Shown here in pieces: positions 1-14,776 of a DNA stretch of 64,000 nucleotides. Both the position numbers and the translations under genes were made by a program. This DNA comes from Gilliamella sp. ESL0441. GTDB taxonomy: Bacteria; Pseudomonadota; Gammaproteobacteria; Enterobacterales; Orbaceae. Within the stretch, counting starts at the first letter, position 1; each line of letters starts with the position of its first letter. The notes under the pieces are model-generated. The model made no database searches. It was not told the origin of the DNA and saw nothing but the letters and a program-made list of their open reading frames with translations. The DNA lies in the NCBI RefSeq assembly GCF_019469185.1, contig NZ_CP048264.1:1860001-1924000 (forward strand). The letters run 5' to 3'.

Positions 1-253
1 CTTGAATATAATCTTGCGTTTGGGCACCATTACGAAATTCCCATGCAACACCATTAAAATTACGTGTGCCATCGAGATTGGCTAGTGGAGTATTATCAAT
101 GAATATATTTTGTTCTGTTAGATCGCCTTGAATTTCCCCTTCACTTAATGCTAAAAGCACTTTGAGCTTTGCTGTTGAAAGCAAATTATCGGGTTGTTCA
201 TAAGGTCTATGTTGTTTTTTTTTACCGCCCTTTTGACCTTCTATTAATTGCAT
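1..253 (-). CDS. Tail tip / host specificity protein J, N-terminal part (runs off window)
   Basis: Reading leftward from the ATG at 253, the product begins MQLIEGQKGGKKKQ, then continues with LLSTAKLKVLLALSEGE and FIDNTPLAN. This is the conserved N-terminus of lambda gpJ-type tip attachment proteins. Only about 84 residues are visible. In lambda the C-terminal region of J contacts the host receptor, so the part that would set the target range is missing here. It is the last gene of the visible tail operon and starts 8 bases after the stop of the I-like gene. Confidence 0.85.
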   Translation of the reverse strand, partial: MQLIEGQKGGKKKQHRPYEQPDNLLSTAKLKVLLALSEGEIQGDLTEQNIFIDNTPLANLDGTRNFNGVAWEFRNGAQTQDYIQ

Positions 254-260
254 AATCCAC

Positions 261-863
261 CTATTGTTGATCTTCTGAATAAATACCCGCGTTAATCACT
301 GCGCCACCAATTTCACGATTACCTAATAAAACAGGAACAGGATATCCCACCGCATTGGTATTAACGGGCGCCCCAAAACCATAATTAGGCTTATTTTCAG
401 TATTTGATGCCCCACCTGCGTTAAATTTAGGCTGAGGGGTAAGTAATTGCACAATGCCACCTAATGCCATGCTCAAACCAATACTAGCTAAAACTGAAGA
501 TGCAGTAATTTCAGCACCCAATAGCGTTAAAGAGGCACCACCAGTAAAGAAAGCACCAATTAAAGCAACGGCTCCGATCACAACTTGTAATAAACCACCA
601 CTTTTGGCGCCTTGAGCTATCGGCATAATCATATAATTTTTGCCATTAACATTAATATCAAACTCATCGATTCCAATATTTTTTCCATCCACAAAAAAGG
701 CAAACTTAATGCCTTTTAAATGAGCCGTACTCATATATTTTTCAAATCCTTTTATTGTCGCACAAAGTGCGCGTAGCAATTCACGGATATTGTTTACGTC
801 ATACGTATGCTTTTTTCCAAATTGCCTTGCCATTGCACCTTTCAAAGTTAACTTACTGAGCAT
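261..863 (-). CDS. Tail assembly protein I-like
   Basis: A 200-residue product if started at the ATG at 863 (MLSKLTLKGAMARQF). The open frame extends upstream to 1013, but that part overlaps the K-like gene and does not look like the family. The central half is a Gly/Ala-rich hydrophobic stretch (about residues 89-143), followed by a polar, Asn-rich tail ending in NREIGGAVINAGIYSEDQQ, typical of lambda gpI. It overlaps the K-like gene by 11 bases and sits just before J. In lambda, gpI is needed for tail tip assembly but is not found in the finished particle. Confidence 0.8.
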   Translation of the reverse strand: MLSKLTLKGAMARQFGKKHTYDVNNIRELLRALCATIKGFEKYMSTAHLKGIKFAFFVDGKNIGIDEFDINVNGKNYMIMPIAQGAKSGGLLQVVIGAVALIGAFFTGGASLTLLGAEITASSVLASIGLSMALGGIVQLLTPQPKFNAGGASNTENKPNYGFGAPVNTNAVGYPVPVLLGNREIGGAVINAGIYSEDQQ

Positions 864-1575
864 TAAATAACTCCTTATGCCGCACAATGCGAACAGTTCT
901 ATCTCGAAAATATTTACCGTAAGGTGTACGTGTAGATAATTGACCGTACAGGTGGTGTAAAATAAGATTATCCCCCACATAAATAGCAGCATGATTTGTG
1001 ACTTGCGAACCAATGCGCATCATAACTATGTCCCCGACTTTCATTTCATTCAGACCGACTTCAACAAATCCTTCTGCTTGCCAATTATCATCATAAAGAT
1101 GCTCTTTCCCACTATCCCACCATTCTCGTGGCACTGAATAATTGTTTAATTTAATCCCATATTCACGATCATAATAATCCATTATTAATGACCAACAATC
1201 AGCGTGACCAAGCAACCATTGCCGTCCGGTATAATCTCGATTTATTCGTGGCGATATTGTGCAAAAATCACCATCAGGGGCAGACATTATTCCCCATTCA
1301 ATACCTGTATAATCACATTGAATACGGTCAAACTCTGACGGAACCAGTGACGTAACATCAGGATGAGAATGAATAATCATGATAATTTCACCTTGTTTTT
1401 CTGCAGCTAACTGTTCTTCTGGTGATATTAAAAAATGCGCTTGTGGATTATCTGAAATGTTTTTACAAGGTAGATAGATCTGTTTTTTTCCCGTATCAAT
1501 AATGAATCCACAAGCTTCATTTGGGTATTCGCTATCCACATGCTTTTTGATTGAATCAAGTAATTTTTGTCGCAT
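853..1575 (-). CDS. Tail tip protein K-like (JAMM + NlpC/P60 peptidase domains)
   Basis: A 240-residue product from the ATG at 1575 (MRQKLLDSIKKHVDSEYP). The N-terminal half is a JAB/MPN-type metalloprotease domain with HSHP followed by SEFD. The C-terminal half is NlpC/P60-like, with the Cys in HADCWSL and a His in NHAAIYVG. This domain order is that of lambda gpK. The NlpC part is expected to cut peptidoglycan peptides during tip assembly or cell wall penetration (family knowledge). The longer frame to 1635 is an upstream extension into the L-like gene and is not used. Confidence 0.85.
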   Translation of the reverse strand: MRQKLLDSIKKHVDSEYPNEACGFIIDTGKKQIYLPCKNISDNPQAHFLISPEEQLAAEKQGEIIMIIHSHPDVTSLVPSEFDRIQCDYTGIEWGIMSAPDGDFCTISPRINRDYTGRQWLLGHADCWSLIMDYYDREYGIKLNNYSVPREWWDSGKEHLYDDNWQAEGFVEVGLNEMKVGDIVMMRIGSQVTNHAAIYVGDNLILHHLYGQLSTRTPYGKYFRDRTVRIVRHKELFNAQ

Positions 1576-1576
1576 A

Positions 1577-2311
1577 TTACTTACCTTGAAGATTAGCCGC
1601 AGGAAAACCGCCAAACGGAAGAGGTTTATTACCATGTCGGGCTTTACAATCTTTTAATAGTCCTCCACATTCATCTTTTGCCGGATCATCAACGGCAATT
1701 CCGTCTTTGGTGAAAAACTTATTTCCAGCATAATCACAGCCTGTACCTGAGCGGTACCATCCGCGCATACACCAAGTACATAGTGTTGTGATTTGCCTGG
1801 TAGGCAATTGTAAATTTTGAATATCAAATGGCGAACAAAGTTCAAATTCAACAATAGCTTTCGTTTCTTCGCGTTTATTATTAATAAAAAATAATTGAAC
1901 TCTTTCTTGAGTTGGATCGGCTGTGGCATTACCTGCTAACCAGTTGTCTGAATCAAGGTATTTTGCCATTGTGGTATGAATTTTTACTCTCGCTTGAACT
2001 AAATCATCATAATCTATACACAATCTAGTCACTCTTCCGTCAATATTACCGATTGACAATTTAGGGGTAGGTTGTGCACCCGTACTACTTAATTCAAGAT
2101 CGCTTAATTCATACGGATACGGTAAATATTCTTTACCTTGCCATTTTATAGAAGGTAAATTTCCAACAGCAAAGGAAGCCCACCCTTCAGCAGAGATATT
2201 ATGAGAATGAAATCGTAAAACCTCATCAAGCCCAAATTTTGTACAATCAACTTCAATAAGTTGTATCAGCTCATTGCCTTCAATGGCTTGTAAATCTTGT
2301 GTTATTGACAT
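1577..2311 (-). CDS. Minor tail protein L-like (probable Fe-S protein)
   Basis: A 244-residue product. The ATG at 2311 is chosen because GGAGAG lies just upstream, in preference to the ATG seven codons earlier. The start MSITQDLQAIEGNELIQL and the C-terminal cysteine cluster (CTWC, then GTGCDYAG, DECGG, KDCKARHG) match lambda gpL. Lambda gpL binds an iron-sulfur cluster through C-terminal cysteines, so the same is expected here. The gene ends 1 base before the start of the K-like gene, implying translational coupling. Confidence 0.85.
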   Translation of the reverse strand: MSITQDLQAIEGNELIQLIEVDCTKFGLDEVLRFHSHNISAEGWASFAVGNLPSIKWQGKEYLPYPYELSDLELSSTGAQPTPKLSIGNIDGRVTRLCIDYDDLVQARVKIHTTMAKYLDSDNWLAGNATADPTQERVQLFFINNKREETKAIVEFELCSPFDIQNLQLPTRQITTLCTWCMRGWYRSGTGCDYAGNKFFTKDGIAVDDPAKDECGGLLKDCKARHGNKPLPFGGFPAANLQGK

Positions 2312-2373
2312 GTTCTCTCCATCAATCCCCAAAACTTAATTAAGAAAATTTTTTGAGGTCTACATTTGAATAA

Positions 2374-2715
2374 TTAAGGTGCATAAGATTGGACAAAAGT
2401 AAAACTTAGCTTTACCACATTCGAAGAGATAAATTCAGATTTGATTGATTCGTTTTGAACACGATATAATCTTTCTTCTCCCCAAGGGTTAACCCACTGA
2501 AAGGAATGAATAATATGGCTGTTAAGAAACTGACGGATTTCAGATAATTCGTTACAATGACCCGTATAGGACAAATCCCATGTTTCACCTGATTTATTGA
2601 TTCCAGAACTCCAAATTTGCGAATATCCATCGTTAAATTTTACTTCTGTGATACTCATTTTTTCCCCTCCATTGGGGGAATGCATTGTTTTCCATTTAAA
2701 TTTATCTACTTTCAT
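2374..2715 (-). CDS. Minor tail protein M-like
   Basis: A 113-residue product from the ATG at 2715, which has GAGGAG 5 bases upstream. The frame opens 5 codons earlier at 2730, but that codon lacks a ribosome site. Motifs NDGYSQIWSSGIN, TWDLSYTG and FQWVNPWGEERLY are those of the phage minor tail protein family that includes lambda gpM. It lies between tape measure H and L, as in lambda, but is separated from H by an unusually long gap of 340 bases. Confidence 0.85.
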   Translation of the reverse strand: MKVDKFKWKTMHSPNGGEKMSITEVKFNDGYSQIWSSGINKSGETWDLSYTGHCNELSEIRQFLNSHIIHSFQWVNPWGEERLYRVQNESIKSEFISSNVVKLSFTFVQSYAP

Positions 2716-3055
2716 ATACTCCTCAAACAAAATTTGGTTTTGAATATGTCTAGGTAATTTAGTTGAATTAAAAACATCAAAATTGAGTAATTAACAATAC
2801 AATTTTTTGACATAAGCGTGAAAACGGATATTTATTAATGTGATCAATTCTAACTTTATGTTTTTTTTTGCAATAAGAAATTAACTTAATTTTGTTGAAC
2901 TGAATCCATTTACGCGCTATAGACGACTAAAATACGATGATATTCCAAGAAATAGGGATGACTAAAAATGAGTTGTTATTGTGTTTTAATATTCGAATAA
3001 GTATTAAAATTATGCCATTTAGAGATTTTAATAAGAATCTAAATGGTTAATATTA
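2716..3055. other. 340-base gap inside the tail operon
   Basis: No open frame or convincing promoter is seen. The stretch is very AT-rich. It contains an inverted repeat close to the 3' end of the tape measure gene (listed separately). All other gaps inside this tail operon are 35 bases or less. It could be a leader for M-L-K-I-J or the remains of a lost gene; neither can be shown from the sequence. Confidence 0.5.
3015..3046 (-). terminator. Hairpin after the tape measure gene
   Basis: Perfect 9-base arms (CCATTTAGA / TCTAAATGG) with a 14-base loop begin 10 bases downstream of the H stop codon. The following minus-strand sequence is CATAATTTTAAT, a poor U-tract. It may be a weak terminator or an mRNA-stabilising hairpin that lowers expression of the genes after H. 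Confidence 0.35.
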
Positions 3056-5656
3056 TTACTTCATCGCATACATGACGTTGTATAACTCTCCTCCCGGTGA
3101 AACTGATTTTTTAAACATCTCATTCATTTGCCGTCTAATAACTGCATCTACTTGAGATTGAACTTGTTTTGGATCGGTATTTTTGCCATGAGTAGAAGTA
3201 CTATTTTCTGAAGACATATTTAATACAATATTGGGATTAACAGTGATTGCATTTGAAGAAGGAGTTGTGCGTTGGGCTAATGCTATCGGAGCCGAAATAG
3301 AGGTATGAATATAACCACCGCTATCGTATCCTTTATGAGAATCATTCATCAGACTATAAAGATAGTCTACACCTAATCGTTTAGTTGCCTCTTTTGTAAA
3401 AACAAACTCGCCTTTATGAACAATTCCTGCTGGTTGGTACTTATTACCTCGTCCGGTAAAACCGCCCGGTTCCAATGCATATCCCACACTTCCACCCGAA
3501 GCATATCCAAGAATTCCCCCCCCTGTATAAGCTTGTTGAAGCCCTCCGGTCGCTTTTCCTCCACCACCAAAACTCGTTAAAGCAGATTGAATAATCTGCG
3601 CTAAAATCAATTTATTAATAATTTCAATTAGATTAACTAAGATAGTTTTTGCAAACTCTTGAAAGTTTGCTTTGCCTGTTGTGACAAGCGTTGTCATCAT
3701 TTGAGACATAGATCCAATTGAATTTTGCGCAAAATCTTTAGCAACACTAAAAACATCTTGAGATGTTTCAGCAAATTCTTTCAAACCAGTTGTTAAACCA
3801 GCTATCCAATCTCCTTTTTGTAAATCTTCTTGCACAAAACTTTCTTCTAAAAGTTGAGCTGCCTCAAGGTAGTTTTGGGTTATAGTGATGATGTTTTCTT
3901 GACTTAGATTATTACTCGGATCTAAATCTTGTTCCTTGTTTCTTTCTAAATTAATTCGACTTTGATACCTTGACGATTGAGATGATGTCATTCCAAAGGT
4001 CGCTTTTTTATCTGCAATCTCATTTTGTAATTGAGTAGAATTGTGAGTACTATTTTGTAAAATCTGTTGGACTTTGATTCGACCATTGATTTCTTCAGAA
4101 ATTGACGCATTTTTTTCATATTGAGTAAGTAACGACGCTTTATTGGCTAGTAAATAACGTTCTTCTGCGGTTAGTCTACTTTTATTGTTTTCTTGTTCCA
4201 AGATGTTAATCTGAGCTTGCAAATCAAAGTATTTTTTACGTTCTGCCGTTATCGCACCGATCGTTGCATTCTGTTCTTTTAATGATTCTAGTTGAATTTG
4301 AAGATTTTTTTCATCCCGTTGACTAGTTTTTAATAATGACGGCGCACTATTTTTTGAAGAAAATAAAGTATTTATTTTATTTACATTGCCTTTATCGCCT
4401 TGAGGGTTGCCAGTTAAATCATTTGATGACTTCAGTATTTTTGTTGAATTGCTGACTTTGGTAATAATTTCTTTAAATTTTATTATAAAATTATCTAAAT
4501 TATCATTTCCTTTACCAGCTATTGATGAAATGTCTCCAAAATAAGCTCCAAGATCATTTAATTTTGCTTCAAACTCGAATGAATTTGAGGCATTTTTAAT
4601 TTCTAACAATTTATTTAAAAAAAGCTTAGCTTCTTCATTAGTTATATTCCAGGTTTTAGCAAGTTGCTCAGTGCTTGATTTAAAAGAACTAAAGATTTTA
4701 TCATACACCTCTTGATTAGCCTCTCTATATTGTTCTTTACTCTCCCAAATATTATCAATTTTTTCAGGTACTTCAATTCCATTTGGATGTTTTTGAATAT
4801 AGTCCAATTCATTAGTTATTCTGTTAAATTTAATCTTTGATTCTTTTAAAATTTCTTCAAACACACCTTTTGAAGACGCAATTGATTTTTCTGAAAGTCT
4901 TTTTGAAGTCTGAATAAATGCCGTCGCAAATTTGGGATTTATATTTGCTAGTTCCTTTAATTCATCAGTAAATGAAACTGTTCCATCTTTATTTAGTTTA
5001 ACAATACTATACAGTTTTTCTTGAGACTCACTTAAACTATCAGTGGCAGATACAGCATTATCAAAATAGTCAAACAAATCCTTACCGACAACGGCACCCA
5101 CTTTAACTATCGTACCAATAGCTTTCCCAACAGGACCGAACAATTCACCAATTTCTATTCCATGTTCCGCCAGTGTCATTAATGGATTTTTCTTCACATT
5201 CGCTTGTGCTGACATCTGTTTCATTTGATTTGAAATCTGACTTAATGCCGCACTCATTTTTTCACTTGTATTGGCAAATGTTTCTTGCGATTCAATTATC
5301 CCAATTAATTGATACTTAGAGCTTTCAATTATTGAATTAAAAACTTGAAAAGCATGAGCATCAATAAATCCATTTCCATTATTGTCAGATAATTGTTGTT
5401 GCACGTAAAGCAGATTATCCAATGCTTTGTTGACCGGATGAATGATCCCTAATAACTTATTATAGACTCCAATTTGGTTATACAAAGATTCCAATTGACG
5501 TTTACTAATATTGTTATGCATTAGTTTAGATGTATTTAGTGTTCTCAAACTTTTATCAGTGGTTTTAAGCTTTACATCTAACTCGTTAATTCTTTTAATC
5601 TCTTTATCAAGATTGCCTGTATCAACTTTTAATGATAATGTAGTTGTTTTTGACAT
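3056..5656 (-). CDS. Tail tape measure protein H-like
   Basis: At 866 residues this is the largest gene of the cluster. The N-terminal three quarters are predicted helical and rich in Lys, Glu and Gln. A hydrophobic segment lies around residues 160-190. The C-terminal part contains FAQNSIGSMSQMM, a Gly-rich run ending in ASGGSVGYA, and GIVHKGEFVFTKEATKRLG, the signature of lambda-family tape measure C-termini. It should set tail length and be threaded by the G/GT chaperones made just upstream. Tail length usually scales with tape measure length; lambda gpH is 853 residues, so a tail of about lambda length is expected (inference). Confidence 0.93.
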   Translation of the reverse strand: MSKTTTLSLKVDTGNLDKEIKRINELDVKLKTTDKSLRTLNTSKLMHNNISKRQLESLYNQIGVYNKLLGIIHPVNKALDNLLYVQQQLSDNNGNGFIDAHAFQVFNSIIESSKYQLIGIIESQETFANTSEKMSAALSQISNQMKQMSAQANVKKNPLMTLAEHGIEIGELFGPVGKAIGTIVKVGAVVGKDLFDYFDNAVSATDSLSESQEKLYSIVKLNKDGTVSFTDELKELANINPKFATAFIQTSKRLSEKSIASSKGVFEEILKESKIKFNRITNELDYIQKHPNGIEVPEKIDNIWESKEQYREANQEVYDKIFSSFKSSTEQLAKTWNITNEEAKLFLNKLLEIKNASNSFEFEAKLNDLGAYFGDISSIAGKGNDNLDNFIIKFKEIITKVSNSTKILKSSNDLTGNPQGDKGNVNKINTLFSSKNSAPSLLKTSQRDEKNLQIQLESLKEQNATIGAITAERKKYFDLQAQINILEQENNKSRLTAEERYLLANKASLLTQYEKNASISEEINGRIKVQQILQNSTHNSTQLQNEIADKKATFGMTSSQSSRYQSRINLERNKEQDLDPSNNLSQENIITITQNYLEAAQLLEESFVQEDLQKGDWIAGLTTGLKEFAETSQDVFSVAKDFAQNSIGSMSQMMTTLVTTGKANFQEFAKTILVNLIEIINKLILAQIIQSALTSFGGGGKATGGLQQAYTGGGILGYASGGSVGYALEPGGFTGRGNKYQPAGIVHKGEFVFTKEATKRLGVDYLYSLMNDSHKGYDSGGYIHTSISAPIALAQRTTPSSNAITVNPNIVLNMSSENSTSTHGKNTDPKQVQSQVDAVIRRQMNEMFKKSVSPGGELYNVMYAMK

Positions 5657-5675
5657 AGATTACCCATATTAAATA

Positions 5676-5693
5676 AACCGACTTTCGTCGGTT
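5676..5693 (-). promoter_or_regulatory. GNRA-tetraloop hairpin between GT and H
   Basis: On the mRNA strand the sequence is AACCGAC-GAAA-GTCGGTT followed by TATTTAATA, starting at the GT stop codon and ending about 20 bases before the H start. A 7-bp stem capped by GAAA is unusually stable for this AT-rich operon. It may be a weak attenuator, an RNase processing stop, or a device that adjusts H levels relative to the major tail protein. Confidence 0.45.
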
Positions 5694-6000
5694 ATTTTGA
5701 TTTGTGTATGATTGTTAAGGCCTGACTTTCCATTAACCGAATATCATTAAAAATTTTTTGGTTTCCTTTAATATCAAGCATTTGCATTACCCAAGGTAAG
5801 CAATTATAGTCAAGACCTAAAATACCACTCATGCTTGTTCTCCACTGCGTTGACATGGCTTGGAATAACTGGAAAGCATCCCAGTTATCTGACCATATTT
5901 CTATATACTCATCTTCATAATCGACTTCCGATAGCCCAAAAGAATCAAGTTCAGCTTTTGAAGGCATTGATGAATAAAGTGCAGTGGCAAGCTCTATGAG
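5692..6000 (-). CDS. Tail assembly chaperone T extension, made as G-T by -1 frameshift
   Basis: The open frame from 5967 encodes 91 residues (MPSKAELDSFGLSE...), resembling DUF1799-type T domains, with TQWRTSMSGILGLDYN. The frame continues upstream without a stop to 6000, exactly where ribosomes would enter after slipping back one base at A AAA AAC in the end of the G gene. No Shine-Dalgarno precedes the ATG at 5967. The predicted G-T fusion is about 205 residues (103 from G, 11 linker codons, 91). In lambda, gpGT recruits the major tail protein to the tape measure and is absent from the mature tail. Confidence 0.8.
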   Translation of the reverse strand, partial: LIELATALYSSMPSKAELDSFGLSEVDYEDEYIEIWSDNWDAFQLFQAMSTQWRTSMSGILGLDYNCLPWVMQMLDIKGNQKIFNDIRLMESQALTIIHKSK

Positions 6001-6308
6001 TTTTTTTCTCGCTGTCCCAACATCTCTTTATAATAAGTATTGGTTATTGCTTGCCAAGCAGCAGGATAGTTATTTAATAAGATATTTAAATTTTCTTGAT
6101 TAAACTCTTCATCCAAATTCCAACCGGATACAATTTTCATCATAAATTCAATGATAGGTTTATCCTTAAGCTCGGTCTCAAACACGGTCAGTTTATCAAC
6201 TGAATAATGTTTGAAATCAAAACTAATTTGACCATCGTCCAATCCAGGACGCGGAATGGAAACTTCACATCTAAATGTCGGATCTGCAATAAGTTTAAAT
6301 TTTGCCAT
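5994..6308 (-). CDS. Tail assembly chaperone G-like
   Basis: A 104-residue product, MAKFKLIADPTFRCEVSIP..., containing FEFMMKIVSGW-like text (IEFMMKIVSGWNLDEEF), typical of phage tail chaperones with a Trp near the middle. It lies between the major tail protein and the tape measure gene, the conserved position of lambda G. Its last codons are GAA AAA AAC TCA TAG, which contain the frameshift heptamer. Most ribosomes would stop here to give G, and a minority would continue into T. Confidence 0.8.
   Translation of the reverse strand: MAKFKLIADPTFRCEVSIPRPGLDDGQISFDFKHYSVDKLTVFETELKDKPIIEFMMKIVSGWNLDEEFNQENLNILLNNYPAAWQAITNTYYKEMLGQREKNS
6000..6006 (-). promoter_or_regulatory. Programmed -1 frameshift site, A AAA AAC
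   Basis: The minus strand reads CGA GAA AAA AAC TCA TAG at the end of the G gene. The heptamer A AAA AAC is in the correct phase for a tandem -1 slip, and the next codons (CTC ATA GAG CTT ...) read straight into the T frame through 11 codons to the ATG at 5967. A -1 fusion at this gene pair is conserved across long-tailed phages, although lambda itself uses a different heptamer (G GGA AAG). Confidence 0.85.
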
Positions 6309-6324
6309 GATTAAAATATCCTAG

Positions 6325-6981
6325 TTAATCTTTATAGAAAGTAATTGCTGGTGATTCAACTGTGGCACTCACTTTTACAGTTTCAATATCATTAATGGCT
6401 GTTGTTGGCGTTGGATCAAAAGCAATACGGACAGAGTCATAACGTGTTTCTTTAGCTTTAGGAACATACATTTTCATTGCAACAACATTATTGGTTAAAT
6501 CCAACTGCTGTAACAATGTGTAGATAGGTAATGAGCTGTCATGAGCAATGGTAAAACTTTTACTTTTCGCTGATTTGATAGTCGGTAATTGACGTTCTGC
6601 ATCATCATCAAGGAACTGAATTTGAATAAATTGCTGTTCACCACCTTCAGTAGCAACCTCTTTAATTTGAGGTAGTTGTTCCCATTCTGTGATTTTGGTG
6701 ATAGTTCCTTGTCCTTCTCCAACAGGGAATACCGTTGTATTACTAGTATTAATATTACCCAAAGTCACTTCATTGTTATTTACATGAGAAATTTTTGCGA
6801 CAATATTATTCAATTTAGTCCATGATGAAGTGAGCATGACTTCGTCCCCGACCACTAGTCCATGCCCTGAATTTAAAGTTACCACTGCTTCTTTAGCATT
6901 AGAAATTGAATTAAAGTTAGTTACTTCATTGTGTGATTTTTGTACATATACACGTGAACCATTAGGTAAAGCAAAACCCAT
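6325..6981 (-). CDS. Major tail tube protein V-like
   Basis: A 218-residue product starting MGFALPNGSRVYVQKSHN. Motifs such as NSGHGLVVGDEVMLTSSW, FIQIQFLDDDAERQLP, RYDSVRIAFDP and a C-terminal TVKVSATVESPAI resemble the lambda gpV/tail tube group. It would polymerise as hexamer rings around the tape measure. It follows the tail terminator gene by 24 bases and has an AAGGAG ribosome site (minus strand, about 6990). The lambda gpV C-terminal Ig-like domain appears absent, since the protein ends at the tube domain. Confidence 0.85.
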   Translation of the reverse strand: MGFALPNGSRVYVQKSHNEVTNFNSISNAKEAVVTLNSGHGLVVGDEVMLTSSWTKLNNIVAKISHVNNNEVTLGNINTSNTTVFPVGEGQGTITKITEWEQLPQIKEVATEGGEQQFIQIQFLDDDAERQLPTIKSAKSKSFTIAHDSSLPIYTLLQQLDLTNNVVAMKMYVPKAKETRYDSVRIAFDPTPTTAINDIETVKVSATVESPAITFYKD

Positions 6982-7005
6982 AATATATATCTCCTTAGAT
7001 TTTAT

Positions 7006-7413
7006 TTAAAATATAGAATCAGCACGATAGTTAAAGCTGATCGGTAGTGTATAACAAGCATTATCCATTTTTGCTGGATAAACACTTGGTATAGAATTTA
7101 CATAAAGTGAAAAGTTAGGACTTGTTAACTCTAAATTGAGTGGAAAATGCTGAATAATATCATCAGATATTTGTTGAGAACGTAACTTACCGCTATTGAT
7201 AGGTGCGACAACAGAAATTTGATAAACACCTCGATAAACCTTCAATTTTCCTTCTGAATCAACGCTTGTTGTTACTTCTGGTAAAATATAAGTTCTGAGA
7301 TAAATATCGGAATGAGAAAGTATTTCACTATTTTCAGCGAAAACAGGTAAGTTTAGTTTCTTTGCAATAATATCAAGGTGAGATTCAAGCAATGCTGAGA
7401 TTGTTGAAATCAA
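7006..7413 (-). CDS. Tail terminator U-like (DUF4128 type)
   Basis: A 135-residue product. The start is a TTG at 7413, supported by AAGGAG 8 bases upstream; the ATG inside that leader (reading ATGATAATTTGA) hits a stop at once. YRGVYQISVVAPINSG and the C-terminal YTLPISFNYRADS are typical of phage tail terminator proteins. It caps the tail and in a phage would join the head. Its retention as first gene of the tail operon, directly after the lysis cassette, marks the point where head genes are missing. Confidence 0.75.
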   Translation of the reverse strand: MISTISALLESHLDIIAKKLNLPVFAENSEILSHSDIYLRTYILPEVTTSVDSEGKLKVYRGVYQISVVAPINSGKLRSQQISDDIIQHFPLNLELTSPNFSLYVNSIPSVYPAKMDNACYTLPISFNYRADSIF

Positions 7414-7564
7414 ATTATCATCTCCTTAGCGACATTTTATAAATAGATCTTGTTAATTATTGTTTGCTCCTAAATTTCATAAAAACTTCAAAAATTAAGG
7501 AAGAGTTTTTTAAATTTATTCAATAAATTCGATTAGAAAAAGCTATTTACACCTGATAAAACAA
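7414..7564. other. Junction between lysis cassette and tail operon
   Basis: A 151-base AT-rich gap with no gene. In lambda-like phages several kilobases of packaging, capsid and connector genes occupy this place. Apart from the U ribosome site near its left edge, no terminator, repeat scar or transposon end is visible. The tail genes may therefore be transcribed by read-through from the lysis cassette. Confidence 0.55.
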
Positions 7565-8041
7565 TTATCTATTACACATAAACAGTGTGTTATTTTGAGG
7601 TGCAATGACTTGACAATAATATTGCTGCCAACCTTCAATTATGGCTCGGTTATAGCCGATTGCGTTGGTGAGACGGTAATAATCTTGTTGAGAAGACTTT
7701 GCAAGTCGTAAGGCTTGCTCAGCAACATCGCCGGTGGTGGCACTATTTCGCTCGATGGCGGCAACTTTGACGCGCAACTCGACAAGACCATTATCCACAT
7801 TATCACGTAAATTCTCTGTTTTAACCTGTTCATCTTTTATTGTCTCAATGATAGTTGACTCAATTTGTTTAATGGCATTATTATTTTGTTGATATGCTTT
7901 AAATTGCGCTTCTAACGTAAGGGTTTTAGTGATAGCTATTTGTTCATCCTTCCAACAGCGATACGCAAAATAGAGCGCAAAAAAAGTGATAAAAATACAA
8001 CAATACGGTAATATTTTAGGGAGTAACGTAAACTTGTTCAT
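7565..8041 (-). CDS. Rz-like inner membrane spanin subunit
   Basis: A 158-residue product. The ATG at 8041 overlaps the endolysin stop as TGATG, implying coupled translation. One N-terminal membrane segment (PYCCIFITFFALYFAYRCW) is followed by a long, charged helical periplasmic domain, the architecture of i-spanins. A second frame inside the gene encodes an Rz1-type lipoprotein, which strongly supports the call. Spanins fuse inner and outer membrane in the last step of lysis. Two cysteines near the C-terminus (YYCQV and MCNR) are seen. Confidence 0.85.
   Translation of the reverse strand: MNKFTLLPKILPYCCIFITFFALYFAYRCWKDEQIAITKTLTLEAQFKAYQQNNNAIKQIESTIIETIKDEQVKTENLRDNVDNGLVELRVKVAAIERNSATTGDVAEQALRLAKSSQQDYYRLTNAIGYNRAIIEGWQQYYCQVIAPQNNTLFMCNR
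7639..7833 (-). CDS. Rz1-like outer membrane lipoprotein (o-spanin), nested in Rz
   Basis: A 64-residue frame lies wholly inside the Rz gene in another phase. It has a classic lipoprotein signal: a basic N-region (MNRLKQR), a hydrophobic core and the lipobox LSSC, followed by a short Pro-rich stretch (ASKLPPSSEIVPPP). The mature protein would be 45 residues, in the range of Rz1. Rz/Rz1 nesting is the standard arrangement in lambdoid lysis cassettes. It looks like a shadow frame by position but is a real gene by its signals. Confidence 0.85.
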   Translation of the reverse strand: MNRLKQRIYVIMWIMVLSSCASKLPPSSEIVPPPAMLLSKPYDLQSLLNKIITVSPTQSAITEP

Positions 8042-8481
8042 CACATCAAACCATTTAAATACACTGTTTTACCGCCATTTTTAATTGCAGTGAGTACTAT
8101 TTGACGGTTTTTGGTTGGACTAAATCCGATATGCACCCATTGATTATGCTCTTGGATAAGCTTATCAAATACCACACCGGCATCAATTAAGCGTTGACAA
8201 ATTTGTTTCGGCGTACCAAATGGAGAACGAAAGTCAACCGCTAAACCCTTTGTATGAGCACTATTTGCAGCACCACCGATCCGGGCATTTAATGCCGGAC
8301 AACGGTAACCGGAAGTAATGATGATTGGGTGCTCAAGGGCTTTTCTGACCAGTTCAAGTTTTATTGCTGTTAATTGGATATTGGGCATCAGTGCTGCCGG
8401 TACTGAATTGTCTATTTTTAGTCGACTGGCGGTCAGTGAATAAGTAAACTCTTCCAGTTTGAAGTGTTCAGTCAATTTCAT
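8041..8481 (-). CDS. Endolysin, peptidase M15 family (D-Ala-D-Ala carboxypeptidase fold)
   Basis: About 146 residues from MKLTEHFKLEEF at 8481, the usual start of this family. The frame opens 11 codons earlier at 8514 without a ribosome site. Motifs SGYRCPALN, SAHTKGLAVDF (zinc His and Asp) and WVHIGF (second zinc His) define the M15_3 zinc peptidases used as phage endolysins. It cuts peptide cross-links of the wall. No signal peptide is present, so release depends on the holin encoded just upstream. A GAGAGG sequence lies about 12 bases before the chosen ATG, a longer spacing than usual. Confidence 0.88.
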   Translation of the reverse strand: MKLTEHFKLEEFTYSLTASRLKIDNSVPAALMPNIQLTAIKLELVRKALEHPIIITSGYRCPALNARIGGAANSAHTKGLAVDFRSPFGTPKQICQRLIDAGVVFDKLIQEHNQWVHIGFSPTKNRQIVLTAIKNGGKTVYLNGLM

Positions 8482-8497
8482 TTGTTTTAATTTCCTC

Positions 8498-8824
8498 TCA
8501 ATTATCATGTTCACGTGTTTTTTTTAATAATTGTTCTTCAAGTGTTTTGATTAATGTGGCACCTGACCACCCCGCTAACCCAGCCACACCGCCTGCCAGT
8601 TCAAACTGCCAGTTAAAGTAACTTGCCGCTAGCAAAACCAAACCGCCAGCAAAGGTGGAGATAAAGATCTGAGCAATTAAAATCATCAGATTGAACTTAT
8701 TACCATTGATAATTTGATAGCAATAACTGGCAAGTGAACCAAGTAAAGTGATAAAAAATAAATAAACGACAACATACCAATTGATATGGTCAGGCTCTTT
8801 GATTGGCATAGGTTTCATCTTCAT
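8498..8824 (-). CDS. Holin (three predicted membrane segments)
   Basis: A 108-residue product with hydrophobic segments near residues 16-37, 46-69 and 74-92, the last Gly/Ala-rich (GGVAGLAGWSGATLIK), and a charged C-terminus. It resembles holins of lambdoid and HP1-like phages. GGAGG lies 6 bases before the first ATG. The N-terminus is MKMKPMPI, so a second in-frame Met occurs at position 3, as in the lambda S MKM dual start. It is the first gene after the terminator pair and would time lysis for particle release. Confidence 0.8.
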   Translation of the reverse strand: MKMKPMPIKEPDHINWYVVVYLFFITLLGSLASYCYQIINGNKFNLMILIAQIFISTFAGGLVLLAASYFNWQFELAGGVAGLAGWSGATLIKTLEEQLLKKTREHDN

Positions 8825-8950
8825 CGTGAGCCTCCTGCTGAGGCAGTTAAAAATAAGAAAGGGTTACGCAGCACTTATGTATAAATTATTTTCTGAGATT
8901 GCTCTGCGAACCCGTTGAATTGTGATAACTGATAGTTAAATCGTAGACAT
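8825..8950. other. Leader between terminator and holin
   Basis: A 126-base stretch on the minus strand between the proximal hairpin terminator and the holin start. No second promoter of good quality is evident. This would be the beginning of the antiterminated late transcript. Confidence 0.4.
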
Positions 8951-8977
8951 AAAAAAACCGCAATGAAGCGGTTTAAT
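8951..8977 (-). terminator. Second intrinsic terminator before the lysis genes
   Basis: The minus strand reads AAACCGC-TTCATT-GCGGTTT followed by TTTTATG, a 7-bp stem with a U-tract. It lies about 140 bases downstream of the late promoter start and just before the lysis cassette, so full-length late transcripts must pass it. Confidence 0.85.
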
Positions 8978-9072
8978 AAAAGAGACTTATATTAATGAAG
9001 TTTATTTAATTTATTTTGATTATTTTATATGAATAAACAGGATGTTAAATAACACATTGCAAATTAAAGGCA
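8978..9072. other. Spacer between the two terminators
   Basis: AT-rich, no frame or clear promoter. RNA that passes the first terminator but stops at the second would be about 165 bases long. Confidence 0.4.
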
Positions 9073-9098
9073 ATAAAAAAGCCCGCTTAGCGGGCTTA
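9073..9098 (-). terminator. First intrinsic terminator (tR'-like)
   Basis: The minus strand reads AAGCCCGC-TAA-GCGGGCTT with a run of T directly after, an 8-bp GC-rich stem and a 3-base loop. It begins about 20 bases after the predicted start of the promoter at 9124-9152. A terminator this close to a strong promoter and next to a Q-like gene matches the lambda pR'-tR' logic. Confidence 0.92.
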
Positions 9099-9123
9099 AG
9101 TAACAATTCTTGATTTTGAGATA

Positions 9124-9152
9124 ATTATACATACATTAGCGTACGTTGTCAA
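9124..9152 (-). promoter_or_regulatory. Perfect sigma70 promoter (pR'-like late promoter)
   Basis: The minus strand carries TTGACA (9152-9147), a 17-base spacer and TATAAT (9129-9124), a full match to the sigma70 consensus at both boxes. Transcription would start near 9117 and run left into two terminators and then the lysis and tail genes. It lies within 50 bases of the end of the Q-like gene. Confidence 0.9.
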
Positions 9153-9170
9153 GATTAACTATCCCATTTT

Positions 9171-9707
9171 TTAAAACACTAAATGTTGCAATAACTCCAG
9201 TTCAGTGCCGGTTAACATCGTTTGCATCGATAATGCACCAATAATGTAACTTTCACCACTACTTTTAATTTTTCGGATATTACCTTCACTACAAGCTAAA
9301 TCCTGAGCTATTTGACGTAAATTTTTAGGTTTAATGATTAATGTAGACGATTTTTGTGTTTTATTTCTTTCGATATAAATATGATCATCGACAATCATTT
9401 CATCACCATAATAGAATTTGATGAGAACTTTCGCTTCTTCTTTTATTTTCGCTATTTTGCTATTTTTCATTGTCGAGATAATTGCATCAATAATTAATCC
9501 ATCTTTATCTAAACAGACTTGTTTATATTCCTTTTTCTGTGATTGATAAAGACTAAAACCTTTTCGTTGTATGTAAGCTTCTTTTCTAGCCCAATTACCC
9601 CATCTGGTTAATACTTGAGTAATATCATAATCAGCGTTCAAGCTTACTTTATTGAGCCATTGTTTCGGGGTAGGACATTCTTCAACATTGATCTGTTTTG
9701 CTAGCAT
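9171..9707 (-). CDS. Q-like late antitermination protein
   Basis: A 178-residue product, start MLAKQINVEECPTP with a GAGGTGA ribosome site. It contains ITQVLTRWGNWARKEA, close to the QVLERWGAWA core of phage antitermination Q family proteins, and a C-terminal helix-turn-helix-like region (LRQIAQDLACSEGNIRKIK). Its place directly upstream of a strong promoter with immediate terminators supports the role of loading onto paused RNA polymerase and allowing late transcription. It would be the activator switch of the lysis and tail genes. Confidence 0.75.
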   Translation of the reverse strand: MLAKQINVEECPTPKQWLNKVSLNADYDITQVLTRWGNWARKEAYIQRKGFSLYQSQKKEYKQVCLDKDGLIIDAIISTMKNSKIAKIKEEAKVLIKFYYGDEMIVDDHIYIERNKTQKSSTLIIKPKNLRQIAQDLACSEGNIRKIKSSGESYIIGALSMQTMLTGTELELLQHLVF

Positions 9708-9858
9708 TATTCACCTCAGGTATTATTTTATTTCTAATCAAAAATTTGTATTTATGCGTCAGTAATAGTTATTTAAATTATTAATCCGCTATTTATTTGC
9801 TTGCTGCTTTTATTAACTTTGTTATTAACATGCTTGTTCATTGAATGAAAAATTAAAA

Positions 9859-9999
9859 TCAGCGCTTAAACTCTTCCTTTACTTTATTAAGTTCATATTG
9901 ATTAATATGTCTTCGACGGTATTCATAAAGTTGTTCAATAAGTTTTTCTGCTTCTTTTATTTTTTCATCAATAGCATCTAATTGTTGTTGAGGCGTCAT
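9859..9999 (-). CDS. Small coiled-coil protein of unknown function
   Basis: A 46-residue product from the ATG at 9999 (MTPQQQLDAIDEKIKEAEKL), with GGAAG 7 bases upstream. It is almost entirely charged heptad-like helix and ends in KVKEEFKR. The longer frame to 10062 has no ribosome site. It lies 150 bases upstream of the Q-like gene on the same strand and could share its transcript. Not recognised as a named family. Confidence 0.55.
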   Translation of the reverse strand: MTPQQQLDAIDEKIKEAEKLIEQLYEYRRRHINQYELNKVKEEFKR

Positions 10000-10033
10000 T
10001 TTTTTTCTTCCATTCTGATAATTTATGTTATTA

Positions 10034-10076
10034 ATATTATCAACAATAAACTGCAAAATCAATAACTATTGTTATT
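10034..10076 (-). promoter_or_regulatory. Candidate promoter with overlapping inverted repeat for the Q transcript
   Basis: On the minus strand TTGATT (10062-10057), a 17-base spacer and TAATAT (10039-10034) form a reasonable sigma70 promoter ahead of the small coiled-coil gene. AATAAC-tatt-GTTATT at 10061-10076 overlaps the upstream edge of the -35 box and could be an operator for a repressor. Confidence 0.4.
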
Positions 10077-10210
10077 TAAATTTAACTTTAACAATATAAT
10101 TTTACACAAAAATAGAGATAATTTATTTAAAATCAATTAAATGAAATAAAAATGTTTATTTGCATCTATTAAAATTCGATAACAAATCCTTTTTTTGATA
10201 ACTTTAGATA

Positions 10211-10239
10211 TTGACAAATTTAATAACTTATATTATCAT
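10211..10239 (+). promoter_or_regulatory. Strong plus-strand promoter candidate
   Basis: TTGACA (10211-10216), 17 bases, TATCAT (10234-10239). The predicted start is near 10246. It drives rightward, divergent from the cluster, toward a strong terminator at 10438. Confidence 0.6.
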
Positions 10240-10245
10240 AATCAC

Positions 10246-10459
10246 CATCAAAACTAATTGAGTTACCAAAAAATTAGCAATACTTCGAGTTACTAGTGGG
10301 GTAATAAGATTCAAGTAGCTAGCAGGGGCATATGAACATTCTGCAGTTTTGATGAGATATTGAAAGAACAATTCATTTAATATGATTGTTATTAGATATC
10401 TGATAAGTGAAACAATGGTTACATTTCACACTCTTTTGCCCCGAAATCGGGGCTTTTTT
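10246..10459 (+). ncRNA. Candidate small RNA or attenuated leader of about 210 bases
   Basis: The stretch between the promoter at 10211-10239 and the terminator at 10438-10459 has no good open frame with a ribosome site, but is less AT-rich in its middle (about 10296-10345, with GTGGGGTAATAAG and AGCAGGGGCAT). A promoter, a structured body and an intrinsic terminator make a small RNA plausible. Alternatively it is a leader whose terminator attenuates the two small genes that follow. No known RNA family is claimed. Confidence 0.45.
10438..10459 (+). terminator. Intrinsic terminator directly before a small gene
   Basis: GCCCCG-AAAT-CGGGGC followed by six T. It ends only 10 bases before the ATG at 10470 and just ahead of that gene's ribosome site, so it acts on the upstream transcript and not on the gene's own end. 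Confidence 0.9.
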
Positions 10460-10469
10460 AGAGGTTATT

Positions 10470-10640
10470 ATGACTAATCGAGATTTTGTAAAAACAGAGA
10501 GAAGATTAAAAGATCGATTTCACAATGATTATCAATTAACACACAGTGAAATTCAATTTGCCCTTTTGTGTACTTTTATTCTAATTATCGGTGGTTTATT
10601 TGGATTTTTTTATTGGATTTTACAAATTGCAACGAGTTAA
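10470..10640 (+). CDS. Small membrane protein, unknown
   Basis: A 56-residue product from the ATG at 10470 with AGAGG 5 bases upstream. The frame extends to a GTG at 10407, but that part runs through the terminator stem and is not used. The charged N-terminal half (MTNRDFVKTERRLKDRF) precedes one membrane segment (FALLCTFILIIGGLFGFFYWIL). It is followed immediately by another small gene. It could be a regulator or immunity-type protein of the neighbouring cluster, but nothing in the sequence shows this. Confidence 0.6.
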   Translation: MTNRDFVKTERRLKDRFHNDYQLTHSEIQFALLCTFILIIGGLFGFFYWILQIATS

Positions 10641-10643
10641 GTG

Positions 10644-10919
10644 ATGAATAGATTATATCAGTTAGTTGAGAATGGCTATGAGCGAAATTATTGGAAAATG
10701 ATGGAGCGCATTGAGGCTCAAGATGCGATAGAAGAATGGATTGATGAACGAGCGTCTACACTTATTAAAAACTTTAGTAATGAAAATGATTGTCAAATAC
10801 TTGAACTGATAAAATCAAAGCTCGATAATCACGCTGTTAATGTTGATATTTACCATCAGTTCATTATTGATATTTGTTATTCGCAAGCTAAACAAGAATT
10901 AAATAATAAATTATATTAA
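10644..10919 (+). CDS. Hypothetical 91-residue acidic protein
   Basis: The start ATG at 10644 lies 3 bases after the previous stop, preceded by an in-frame GTG at 10641. The protein begins MNRLYQLVENGYERNYWKM, is helical and acidic, and contains no recognised motif. Being coupled to the small membrane protein gene it is probably a two-gene unit read from the attenuated promoter at 10211. Confidence 0.6.
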   Translation: MNRLYQLVENGYERNYWKMMERIEAQDAIEEWIDERASTLIKNFSNENDCQILELIKSKLDNHAVNVDIYHQFIIDICYSQAKQELNNKLY

Positions 10920-11015: not shown

Positions 11016-11103
11016 TGGCGGTGAGGAAGGGATTCGAACCCTTGATACGTTGCCGTATACACACTTTCCAGGCGTGCTCCTTCAACCACTCGGACACCTC
11101 ACC
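11016..11103 (-). tRNA. tRNA-Ser (anticodon GGA)
   Basis: The minus strand folds as an 88-base class II tRNA with acceptor GGTGAGG, a long variable arm, the T-loop GGTTCGAATCC and an encoded 3' CCA. The anticodon loop CTGGAAA places GGA at 11069-11067. It flanks the phage-derived cluster, with its 3' end facing the cluster. Confidence 0.97.
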
Positions 11104-13383: not shown

Positions 13384-14355
13384 CTATTTAATTATGTGCT
13401 CAGGTTTAACGGTTAATTGCATACCAGAGCCAACTTTTACTTTGATATGATCTTTTTCAATATTGACGATTTGTACCTTTAATGTTTTATTACTTAAACT
13501 CACTTTGACAAAATCACCAATCTGTAGAGTTTTGGGCGCTTTCTGTAAGGAAGAATGAACTAAGTTAGGTTTCAAATCTGTTCGCTTTTTAAAATTCTCT
13601 TTAGCCTTACCTTTGCTTTCTTTTAATTGTTGCTGTGCATAATCCATTTGTTGTTGGGTAATTATTTCGCCTTCGTTACCATCTAAATCAACACGATGCA
13701 CGCCCGTTTTAAGACAATATAAGTATCGCCAATTATTAGTATAAACCCTTAAAGCAATGCGAAGCTTTGTTTTGCTAATTTCTTCTTTACCGTCTAGGCG
13801 AGAAAGAATATCTTGAAAGATACCTATTTTCAGAGGTTTGGCTTCACCTTCAAGACTAAAACATTTCGGAAACTGTTGAGCCAGATAAACAATAATTTCT
13901 TTACTGTTTGTCAATTGAAATTGCTTTTCCATTCTTTTCGCCGTCTCGACTAAACTATTAGAACGAGGTGAAGAATGCACATTTGCTCCAGTTTTATCTT
14001 TATTCTCTTTTTTAGATCGTTGTTTAGCTTTTTCTTTACTAATCTTTAGCTGCTCCTGAGCGAGATCCATCTGTTCTTGTGTAATAACTTCATGATCATG
14101 TCCATTCAAGTCTATCCGATATTTACCTGTTTTAATACTATGCAAATAACGCCAACTTGTTGTATAAGAGCGTAATGCTAAACGTAGTTTAGATTTACTC
14201 AATTCTTGATTTGAATCTAATCGTGAAAGAATATCTTCAAATATATCTATTTTTAATGGTTTAGCTTCACCTTCAAGCGTAAAACAATTAGGAAATAGTT
14301 GAGCTAAATAAGCTATAATTTCTTTATTATTTGTCAATTGAAACTGTTTTTCCAT
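13384..14355 (-). CDS. proQ: ProQ RNA chaperone with duplicated FinO/ProQ domain
   Basis: A 323-residue product, against about 230 for ordinary ProQ. Residues 1-112 and 142-253 are two full copies of the RNA-binding domain, each with PLKI-IF-DILSRLD and SK-KLR-ALR-YT--WRYL. A C-terminal KOW/Tudor-like domain (about 268-323) occurs once. The second copy begins with MEKQFQLTN, like the first, and is preceded by ACGGCGAAAAGA, a vestige of the ribosome site found before copy 1, so it looks like a fusion of two tandem genes. Domain 2 is closer to standard ProQ. An internal start at 13932 could still make a single-domain form. Confidence 0.92.
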   Translation of the reverse strand: MEKQFQLTNNKEIIAYLAQLFPNCFTLEGEAKPLKIDIFEDILSRLDSNQELSKSKLRLALRSYTTSWRYLHSIKTGKYRIDLNGHDHEVITQEQMDLAQEQLKISKEKAKQRSKKENKDKTGANVHSSPRSNSLVETAKRMEKQFQLTNSKEIIVYLAQQFPKCFSLEGEAKPLKIGIFQDILSRLDGKEEISKTKLRIALRVYTNNWRYLYCLKTGVHRVDLDGNEGEIITQQQMDYAQQQLKESKGKAKENFKKRTDLKPNLVHSSLQKAPKTLQIGDFVKVSLSNKTLKVQIVNIEKDHIKVKVGSGMQLTVKPEHIIK

Positions 14356-14371: not shown

Positions 14372-14776
14372 TTAAAATTTTAAATTATGAAAGGGAAATA
14401 TTGGGTTTTTATTTTGTGCTAATAGTTTTGAGTATTTTTCAAATTTCTGATTACTAGCTTCTGGCTGTTGCTTAACATACCGTATTTTTTTCTGATTAAC
14501 CTCATCTTTTCTGCTTTCAATCCTATTGGGCTTAAACCGTTTAAAAAGGATTATGAAACTTTTTAAATTCCACCTTTTTATAATATCGATATTTAAGATA
14601 ATTCGTGATTTAACTTTACTCATTATTTCATAGACTTTCAAACGATAAACAATATCGCGTAAAATATCAATCTTTAACGGTTTTGTTATCGTTTGAAAAG
14701 TGAAACAAATAGGAAACTGCTGAACTAAATAAGCAATAATCTCTTGACTATCTGTTAGTTGAAATTGTTTTACCAT
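14372..14776 (-). CDS. Degenerate ProQ-like paralogue
   Basis: A 134-residue product starting MVKQFQLTDSQEIIAYLVQQ, clearly the same domain as in proQ, 16 bases upstream of it. The first 50 residues keep the fold (PLKIDILRDIVYRL), but the second half has lost the conserved LR-ALR-YT--WRYL residues that bind RNA, and no Tudor domain follows. It is either decaying or has diverged to a new use. The GGAA ribosome site is retained. Together with proQ it makes three tandem copies of the domain. Confidence 0.75.
   Translation of the reverse strand: MVKQFQLTDSQEIIAYLVQQFPICFTFQTITKPLKIDILRDIVYRLKVYEIMSKVKSRIILNIDIIKRWNLKSFIILFKRFKPNRIESRKDEVNQKKIRYVKQQPEASNQKFEKYSKLLAQNKNPIFPFHNLKF

Follow-up and report, generated by a model that had tools for sequence, protein, structure and literature searches.

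What does a lysis cassette mean when it runs straight into a phage tail operon, with no head genes in between? The question is raised by the left end of a 64,000-nucleotide stretch (G000:C1:1860001-1924000, hereafter the window) of the closed 2,754,041-base chromosome of Gilliamella sp. ESL0441 (G000), for which the original prediction had proposed an F-type tailocin. We analysed the window from about 1 to 14.4 kb, extended it leftwards with the genome stretch 1840601-1860600 (L002), and compared it across 35 genus genomes, ESL0441 included, among them Gilliamella sp. wkB308 (G008) and wkB108 (G011), one genome each. We hold with good confidence that the island found here is an F-type (flexible, non-contractile) tailocin with an apparently invertible fibre, and that its regulon is probably shared with an R-type tailocin on the same chromosome.

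On the minus strand, the first 11 kb of the window comprise orf67, Q, a late promoter, holin, an M15 endolysin, Rz/Rz1, U, V, G/GT, H, M, L, K, I and J (Table 1). The original prediction had described a lysis cassette joined directly to a lambda-type tail operon, and each gene that it named is present and open. The roughly 150 bases that it placed where head genes should be measure 151 bp, from the end of Rz at 7565 to the start of U at 7413. Its Q-like activator matches PF06530, and a late promoter is found as proposed. J, of which the window holds the 5' part, is complete in L002 (16333-19653, 1106 aa).

We next asked what lies to the left of J, where head genes had remained to be looked for. 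None was found; a fibre switch, a recombinase and prmB occupy this side instead. J is followed in L002 by a 91-aa gene, a 228-aa gene, a 431-aa side fibre and a 110-aa fibre chaperone (PF02413), and then, on the opposite strand, by a 175-aa chaperone, a 187-aa fibre tip and a 294-aa tyrosine recombinase (PF00589, 1.4e-18), before prmB and aroC (both named by eye). A PHROGs scan of 18 open reading frames (ORFs) from the window side of the island and 8 from its left side gave none that is head-like, and the 19.4 kb between prmB and prc yielded no gene for a head, portal or terminase. A genus-wide profile search with phrog_2, which we take to be the terminase large subunit, placed the strong ESL0441 match closest to the island at 1427772, about 420 kb away; matches near 30 bits occur in nearly every genome and were judged to be background.

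The element extends over about 1852296-1870919 of the genome, and prmB and prc are 19,359 bp apart in ESL0441. All 35 genus genomes contain prc, and all give E-value matches to prmB, with an ortholog in 34 (G031 has weak paralogs only). In 30 of the 35 the site is empty, prmB and prc being separated by 376-469 bp, with no space for an island. The two genes are on separate contigs in wkB308, wkB108 and G033, and G031 is not judgeable. In both wkB308 and wkB108 tail or fibre genes adjoin prmB, and lysis or regulatory genes adjoin tRNA-Ser/prc on separate contigs; pieced together across contigs in these two, the island appears to sit at the same site, prmB to tRNA-Ser/prc, in all three carriers. 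We rejected integration at tRNA-Ser via repeats, because the two border stretches compared share no direct 12-mer.

The left part of the island contains a perfect 20-bp inverted repeat, with one copy right after the recombinase stop (L002 12581-12600) and the other inside the fibre gene (14418-14437), the two bounding a segment of 1.86 kb. The repeat is read in one and the same phase (PIYVVG) from either side, so the fibre stays in frame whichever tip is joined to it. Alignment of ESL0441 with wkB308 reveals that the segment is reversed in wkB308 between flanks that are direct, and that the direction switches at the repeat (19 of 20 bases in wkB308): L002 13086-14437 aligns to L093 5190-3839, and L002 12581-12904 to L093 5674-5351. 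The N-terminal part of the wkB308 fibre is fused to the second tip in one ORF, which represents a natural alternative form. In addition, wkB308 contig C41 begins at the repeat, and its overlap with C40 amounts to 1166 bases without a difference, which fits mixed orientations in the sequenced culture without proving them. The fibre inversion at the repeats is thus seen between the two strains, and the enzyme responsible is one that we infer. The two ESL0441 tips have no similarity to each other at E values up to 1. The repeats beside this recombinase and its close relatives share the dyad CCTA-N9-TAGG. The exact 20-bp repeat has no match in IMG/VR, and a degenerate form matched nine stretches there (L141, L149 and L151, which we inspected, and L145-L148, L150 and L152).

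As a separate observation, the second tip (tip B) and the fibre tip of a Mu-like prophage at 1.42-1.45 Mb (L155 19129-19833) share 59% identity over 177 aa, which suggests that tips pass from phage to tailocin or back.

A second locus, of the R (contractile) type, is found about 320 kb from the F locus, at G000:C1:1514329-1530708 (L121 9329-20000 and L130 1-5711). We identified it by tblastn with wkB308 R-type proteins; ORFs were listed for L121 1-12600 and L130 1-12000, and the remainder rests on tblastn. It carries the sheath, tube, baseplate, tape measure and lysis genes (Rz/Rz1, endolysin and holin) of an R-type tailocin and no heads, together with a fibre, its own arm-less recombinase (83%), a 20-bp inverted repeat, TCCTATTTATGAGGTAGGTG, and a CI repressor that has both an HTH and an S24 domain. 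Sheath relatives are present in 10 of the 35 genomes; some of these are probably phages, since a terminase match lies within 8 kb in G002 and G021.

We also compared the F-locus lysis cassette (window 7572-9152) with that of the R locus (L130 2155-3729). Within a genome they are 90.7% identical in DNA in ESL0441 and 98.7% in wkB308. Across species the values are 82.6-87.2%, and this excess of within-genome over between-species identity suggests gene conversion within each genome. The wkB308 contig C37 joins an R-type tail to Q-CI-tRNA-Ser-prc, and both C37 and C41 start at or near fibre repeats. We do not claim an R and F tandem in wkB308, because C37 may be a chimera through the 98.7% identical lysis cassettes and C20 puts the left flank of the R locus as in ESL0441.

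When the regulatory elements of the two loci are set side by side, they look cross-wired. The extended late promoter TTGACAACGTACGC-N9-TATAnnA, at no more than one mismatch, occurs four times in the genome, once at the F locus and three times in tandem at the R locus, with none in the reversed control. A hairpin and T run follow each of the four (by eye), and the three R promoter/terminator units precede the holin. In a search of the genome against itself, the sole intact Q found was that of the window, and the R locus holds a 53-aa remnant (40%). The R locus, for its part, has the sole close CI; the match after it reaches 31% over 74 aa. A CI-like gene is found near tRNA-Ser in wkB308 (by profile) and wkB108 (by eye), and not in ESL0441. 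Upstream of Q in ESL0441 there are four RATAACNNNNGTTATY sites with at most one mismatch, a number that 0 of 1000 dinucleotide shuffles reached (mean 0.022); upstream of CI in wkB308 there are likewise four (0 of 1000 shuffles). From these counts we infer that CI from the R locus may repress Q at the F locus, and that Q from the F locus may fire the R promoters.

With the R locus as the sole source of the repressor in this genome, both tailocins probably belong to one regulon. A bolder version would describe a two-locus arsenal: an R locus that has lost its activator and bears the sole repressor, an F locus that has lost its repressor and bears the sole activator, a Q that fires the four late promoters at both, and two weapons that are each re-aimed by inversions under arm-less integrase descendants. 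Neither weapon would then be made or silenced alone, since Q from the F locus would fire promoters at both. We put this version forward tentatively, with slightly less belief than doubt.

We next examined how the F locus has been preserved among its relatives. Ten tail proteins of wkB308 are 96.7-100% identical to those of the window, and the nine found in wkB108 are 49-84% identical. Outside the three carriers, lysis and tail clusters with no head genes between them were found in G016 near 1.45 Mb, on G028 C22 and on G005 C21 (where the contig ends at the holin); a tape measure search matches 10 of the 35 genomes. Altogether there are six loci (G000, G008, G011, G005, G028 and G016a) in which tail terminator or tube genes come no more than about 0.7 kb after the lysis genes. 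A slippery heptamer, A AAA AAC, at 6006-6000 of the window, is present in G/GT in five of the six loci examined, the window's included, and was not seen in G016a by the pattern used; G and G-T are probably joined by a -1 frameshift.

All tail genes are open in wkB308, and all those found are open in wkB108, where H was aligned over its last third only, owing to a contig break. The disruption in most related strains that would have spoken for decay is therefore not seen in the two other carrier species, with the reservation that U was not found in wkB108. Compared with wkB308, the tail genes contain no stop, and omega is 0-0.20 in eight of ten, with 0.43 for U on five changes and T unchanged. 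The synonymous divergence (dS) between these two strains is uneven: 0.00-0.12 in the ten tail genes, 0.07 in the recombinase and 0.04 in the constant fibre part. By comparison it is 0.22 for prmB, 0.35 for both aroC and Rz, 0.71-0.83 for Q and the two lysis genes holin and endolysin, and 1.87 for prc. Divergence is much greater (0.38-0.77) in the variable tip B and in the two chaperones than in the rest of the block. The low values indicate that the tail and recombinase block was recently exchanged between the two lineages. Compared with wkB108, omega is 0.06-0.21 and dS is saturated.

The locus thus combines a non-contractile tail module, lysis genes in the same cluster, no head genes found, and genes that are open under purifying selection. 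An F-type tailocin is the best reading because heads are absent, 30 of 35 sites are empty, and wkB308 and wkB108 carry a related headless tail operon. The candidate of the original prediction is supported in its essentials, that is, by the full tail from U to J, the lysis genes and the lack of detectable head genes.

Several observations nonetheless weigh against our reading. On the regulatory side, the RATAACNNNNGTTATY motif was picked after seeing two of these sites, and it lacks genome-wide enrichment (118 sites, with 132 in the reversed control). The R locus of ESL0441 has a single such site, which 12 of 1000 shuffles reach, and upstream of CI in wkB108 there are no operator-like sites. 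At the level of the genes, just three of the 35 genus genomes showed the locus, with G031 and G033 undecided, and it is for that reason no core trait. In G005 the U gene is fragmented, and in wkB108 and G028 it was not found; the G028 endolysin is cut short (37 of 157 aa matched); and neither a Q nor a recombinase like the window's was found at the wkB108 locus. Because of the recent tail exchange, ESL0441 and wkB308 are not two independent witnesses, and the omega values against wkB108 are rough because dS is saturated. Purifying selection could also be partly inherited from phage life.

The scarcity of operator-like sites at the R locus would fit two loci that are regulated separately, with the lack of CI at F and of Q at R being coincidental losses and the F locus constitutive or dead; orf67 might then be a regulator of its own. 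Separate regulation does not readily account for the fact that all four extended late promoters in 2.75 Mb lie at these two loci, or for the four operator-like sites kept upstream of a Q that has no CI encoded beside it. We consider it unlikely, while allowing it appreciable weight.

Another reading is a decaying lambdoid prophage, in which head, replication and integration genes have been lost by chance and tail genes not yet. Such decay would suit the U that is broken or was not found in G005, wkB108 and G028, the shortened G028 endolysin, the phage integrase descent of the recombinase, and the occurrence of tail-gene relatives in probable prophages, including a second G016 tail cluster that lies about 19 kb from a terminase match which itself has one internal stop. 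Chance loss is hard to reconcile, however, with a lysis-tail junction that recurs in six loci, three of them (G000, G008 and G011) at one site, when dS between wkB108 and ESL0441 is saturated. Nor is there a stop in the aligned tail stretches of wkB308 and wkB108, and the regulatory signals, slippery site and fibre switch of ESL0441 look intact. We therefore regard decay as improbable and retain the F-type tailocin.

Is the recombinase the enzyme that inverts the fibre segment? Its nearest relatives in phage records are lambdoid integrases, with 38.5% identity to phage 434 Int over the core-binding and catalytic parts. R155, K178, H248, R251, H271 and Y280, which we take to be the catalytic set, are all retained. 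In contrast to lambda and 434 Int, the Gilliamella protein lacks the arm-binding domain, since its residue 1 aligns with Int residue 55 and the first ~54 residues are missing. Of seven close relatives, five start at Int residue 55 and G014 at 51; for wkB108 the alignment is ambiguous, with a frame of 308 aa as against 356. The enzyme belongs to the tyrosine recombinases (PF00589) and not to the serine resolvase family of the Gin, Cin and Ein invertases. In all five loci with at least 67% identity and enough sequence (L002, L093, L121, L122 and L124, the first two being the same locus in two species), an inverted repeat lies no more than 20 bp from the recombinase 3' end. This count leaves aside the duplicates L140/L151 (the ESL0441 R locus) and L142 (wkB108 C70), as well as L123, L128 and L141, which end too soon. 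An exception is a 63% relative (G016a; L125) without a 13-bp repeat. No 14-bp inverted repeat was found near five relatives of about 40% identity (G032, Erwinia, Pectobacterium and two IMG/VR contigs), two of which end 1.3-2.0 kb past the gene, and switches in these relatives were rejected on that account. Taken together, the arm-less tyrosine recombinase beside the repeat is likely the inverting enzyme.

It could be argued that the recombinase is a leftover integrase and the repeat has no role, the orientation differing between strains through ordinary homologous recombination. That its nearest named relatives in phage records are integrases, and that the G016a relative has no 13-bp repeat, would both fit. 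Lambda Int requires its arm-binding domain, though, and this is the very part that is missing. Moreover, the repeat accompanies the recombinase in every one of the five close loci and was found near none of the five distant ones; it forms a dyad with half-sites CCTA/TAGG, as expected for the core site of a tyrosine recombinase; and 20 bp is short for homologous recombination. We give a leftover integrase little credence, and continue to favour a dedicated inversion enzyme.

The same recombinase type also stands with an inverted repeat beside other fibre genes, at L122 8151-9741 and L124 7427-9439 (G. apicola ESL0177 and wkB108, respectively). The fibre genes there match phrog_327 and phrog_381, presumably P2-like.

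Finally, a split phage or satellite, whose tails are joined to heads from another prophage in the same cell, seems very improbable: the prophage at ~1.42-1.45 Mb of the same chromosome does have a terminase match and MuA/MuB-like, portal-like and capsid-like genes (by eye, from open frames), and ESL0441 does keep U, which in lambda joins tails to heads, but that prophage was rejected as a supplier of heads since it comes with a 1050-aa tape measure and more tail-like genes of its own, packaging and integration genes were not found at the island, whose borders share no direct 12-mer, and wkB108, G005 and G028 have no phrog_2 match above ~33 bits, although a single profile may miss other terminases.

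How would an F-type tailocin of this kind operate? Upon SOS induction the CI/S24 repressor would be cleaved and Q freed, and RNA polymerase would then read past the terminators that follow the late promoter. Holin, endolysin, spanins and a headless lambda-type tail would be made, and lysis would release tails that may hit relatives with a matching receptor. The choice of receptor would be set by the side fibre, whose C-terminal part and chaperone would be swapped by inverting the 1.86 kb segment, presumably through the arm-less lambda-Int-like tyrosine recombinase encoded beside the repeat. With CI supplied from the R locus, Q from the F locus and late promoters at both, the two would behave as one regulon.

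Each part of this scheme has counterparts elsewhere. The F-type pyocin is reportedly related to lambda. Carotovoricin and xenorhabdicin are both R-type, and the carotovoricin invertase is of the serine (Gin/Cin) family. Unlike the pyocins, which form one cluster, the Gilliamella R and F loci are about 320 kb apart and each has a lysis cassette; activation is probably via a Q antiterminator and not a P-box activator, repressor and activator genes are at different loci, and the fibre is invertible. Shared features, according to PMC8609362, are a headless flexible tail with holin and lysin and the presence of R and F types in one strain; the same paper describes, for the R and F pyocins of Pseudomonas aeruginosa, cleavage of PrtR with RecA and activation by PrtN, one pair serving both types. 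The carotovoricin Er/ein locus of Pectobacterium similarly joins a tailocin fibre to DNA inversion, its invertase gene being variably present or absent (PMC13195805), whereas in Gilliamella a tyrosine recombinase takes this place at the F-type and R-type loci alike. In xenorhabdicin of Xenorhabdus the fibre region is inverted between sister strains, and the loci are described as lacking an invertase gene (PMC13280938). A further parallel is the Rin shufflon of Bifidobacterium prophages, where a predicted arm-less tyrosine recombinase flanks variable receptor-binding C-termini with short crossover sites (PMC6109161). The likeness is one of layout, an arm-less enzyme with repeats that split the constant from the variable fibre. 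Rin concerns prophages of Actinobacteria with several variable segments and 11-bp sites; in Gilliamella the elements are headless, the sites are 20 bp long and the switch has two states.

We found no open-licence literature on a tailocin in Gilliamella or on a tailocin with a shufflon, and for tailocins with a tyrosine recombinase only XerC/pyocin work, which is weak evidence of absence. What is probably new here is the tyrosine-recombinase fibre switch, along with a probable split regulon shared with an R-type tailocin.

Table 1. Features of the F-type locus in the window (positions in the window; strand as read there).
Feature	Position	Strand	Basis
J 5' part, central tail tip/fibre	1..253	-	phrog_31/2589; Pfam FNIII-A_GpJ, Phage_Tail_Tip
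I, tail assembly protein	261..860	-	phrog_32, 1.2e-60
K, minor tail protein	853..1575	-	phrog_30, 1.3e-114
L, minor tail protein	1577..2311	-	phrog_18, 1.3e-102
M, minor tail protein	2374..2730	-	phrog_14, 7.5e-27
H, tape measure, 866 aa	3056..5656	-	phrog_24, 4e-80
G and G-T	5692..6308	-	phrog_569, phrog_680
V, tail tube protein	6325..6981	-	phrog_584; PF08813 1e-51
U, tail terminator	7006..7413	-	phrog_179; PF13554 1.5e-21
Rz, with Rz1 nested at 7639-7833	7565..8044	-	phrog_13, phrog_3198
Endolysin, M15 peptidase	8041..8514	-	PF08291, phrog_894
Holin	8498..8824	-	PF16083, phrog_6384
Two terminator-like hairpins with T runs, between late promoter and holin	~9097-9075, 8973-8951 (8951..9097)	-	by eye
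Late promoter TTGACA-17-TATAAT, written TTGACAACGTACGC-N9-TATAAT	9123..9152	-	pattern search
Q antiterminator	9171..9707	-	PF06530
orf67, upstream of Q	9859..10062	-	PHROGs, phrog_1402
Four operator-like palindromes RATAACNNNNGTTATY, 0-1 mismatch	10017, 10061, 10197, 10222 (10017..10237)	.	motif search
orf77 and orf92, tRNA end of island	10407..10919	+	tblastn to L094, L095
tRNA-Ser(GGA), right border of island	11016..11103	-	ARAGORN

Among the remaining features, a gene-free gap of 325 bp separates H from M (window 2731-3055), and wkB308 has one of about 290 bp in the same place. Both orf77 and orf92 were recovered by tblastn in wkB308, and orf77 alone in wkB108. Outside the island, proQ lies beside prc (window 13384-14355, minus strand); its product, a single protein of 323 aa, has two ProQ/FinO domains, and part of a third copy lies upstream. 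A second copy is also present in wkB308 and G031; 27 of the 30 loci examined have one within 1500 bases beside prc.

In the bee gut, many close Gilliamella strains live side by side. As weapons of bee gut bacteria, the abstracts consulted describe type VI secretion systems. A tailocin whose tip can be switched would add a second one, with which one lineage could target two kinds of receptor. A phage integrase without its arm-binding domain has seemingly been turned into the inversion enzyme of a headless element. If the split regulators act in trans, they would also explain why the two weapons are not lost separately.

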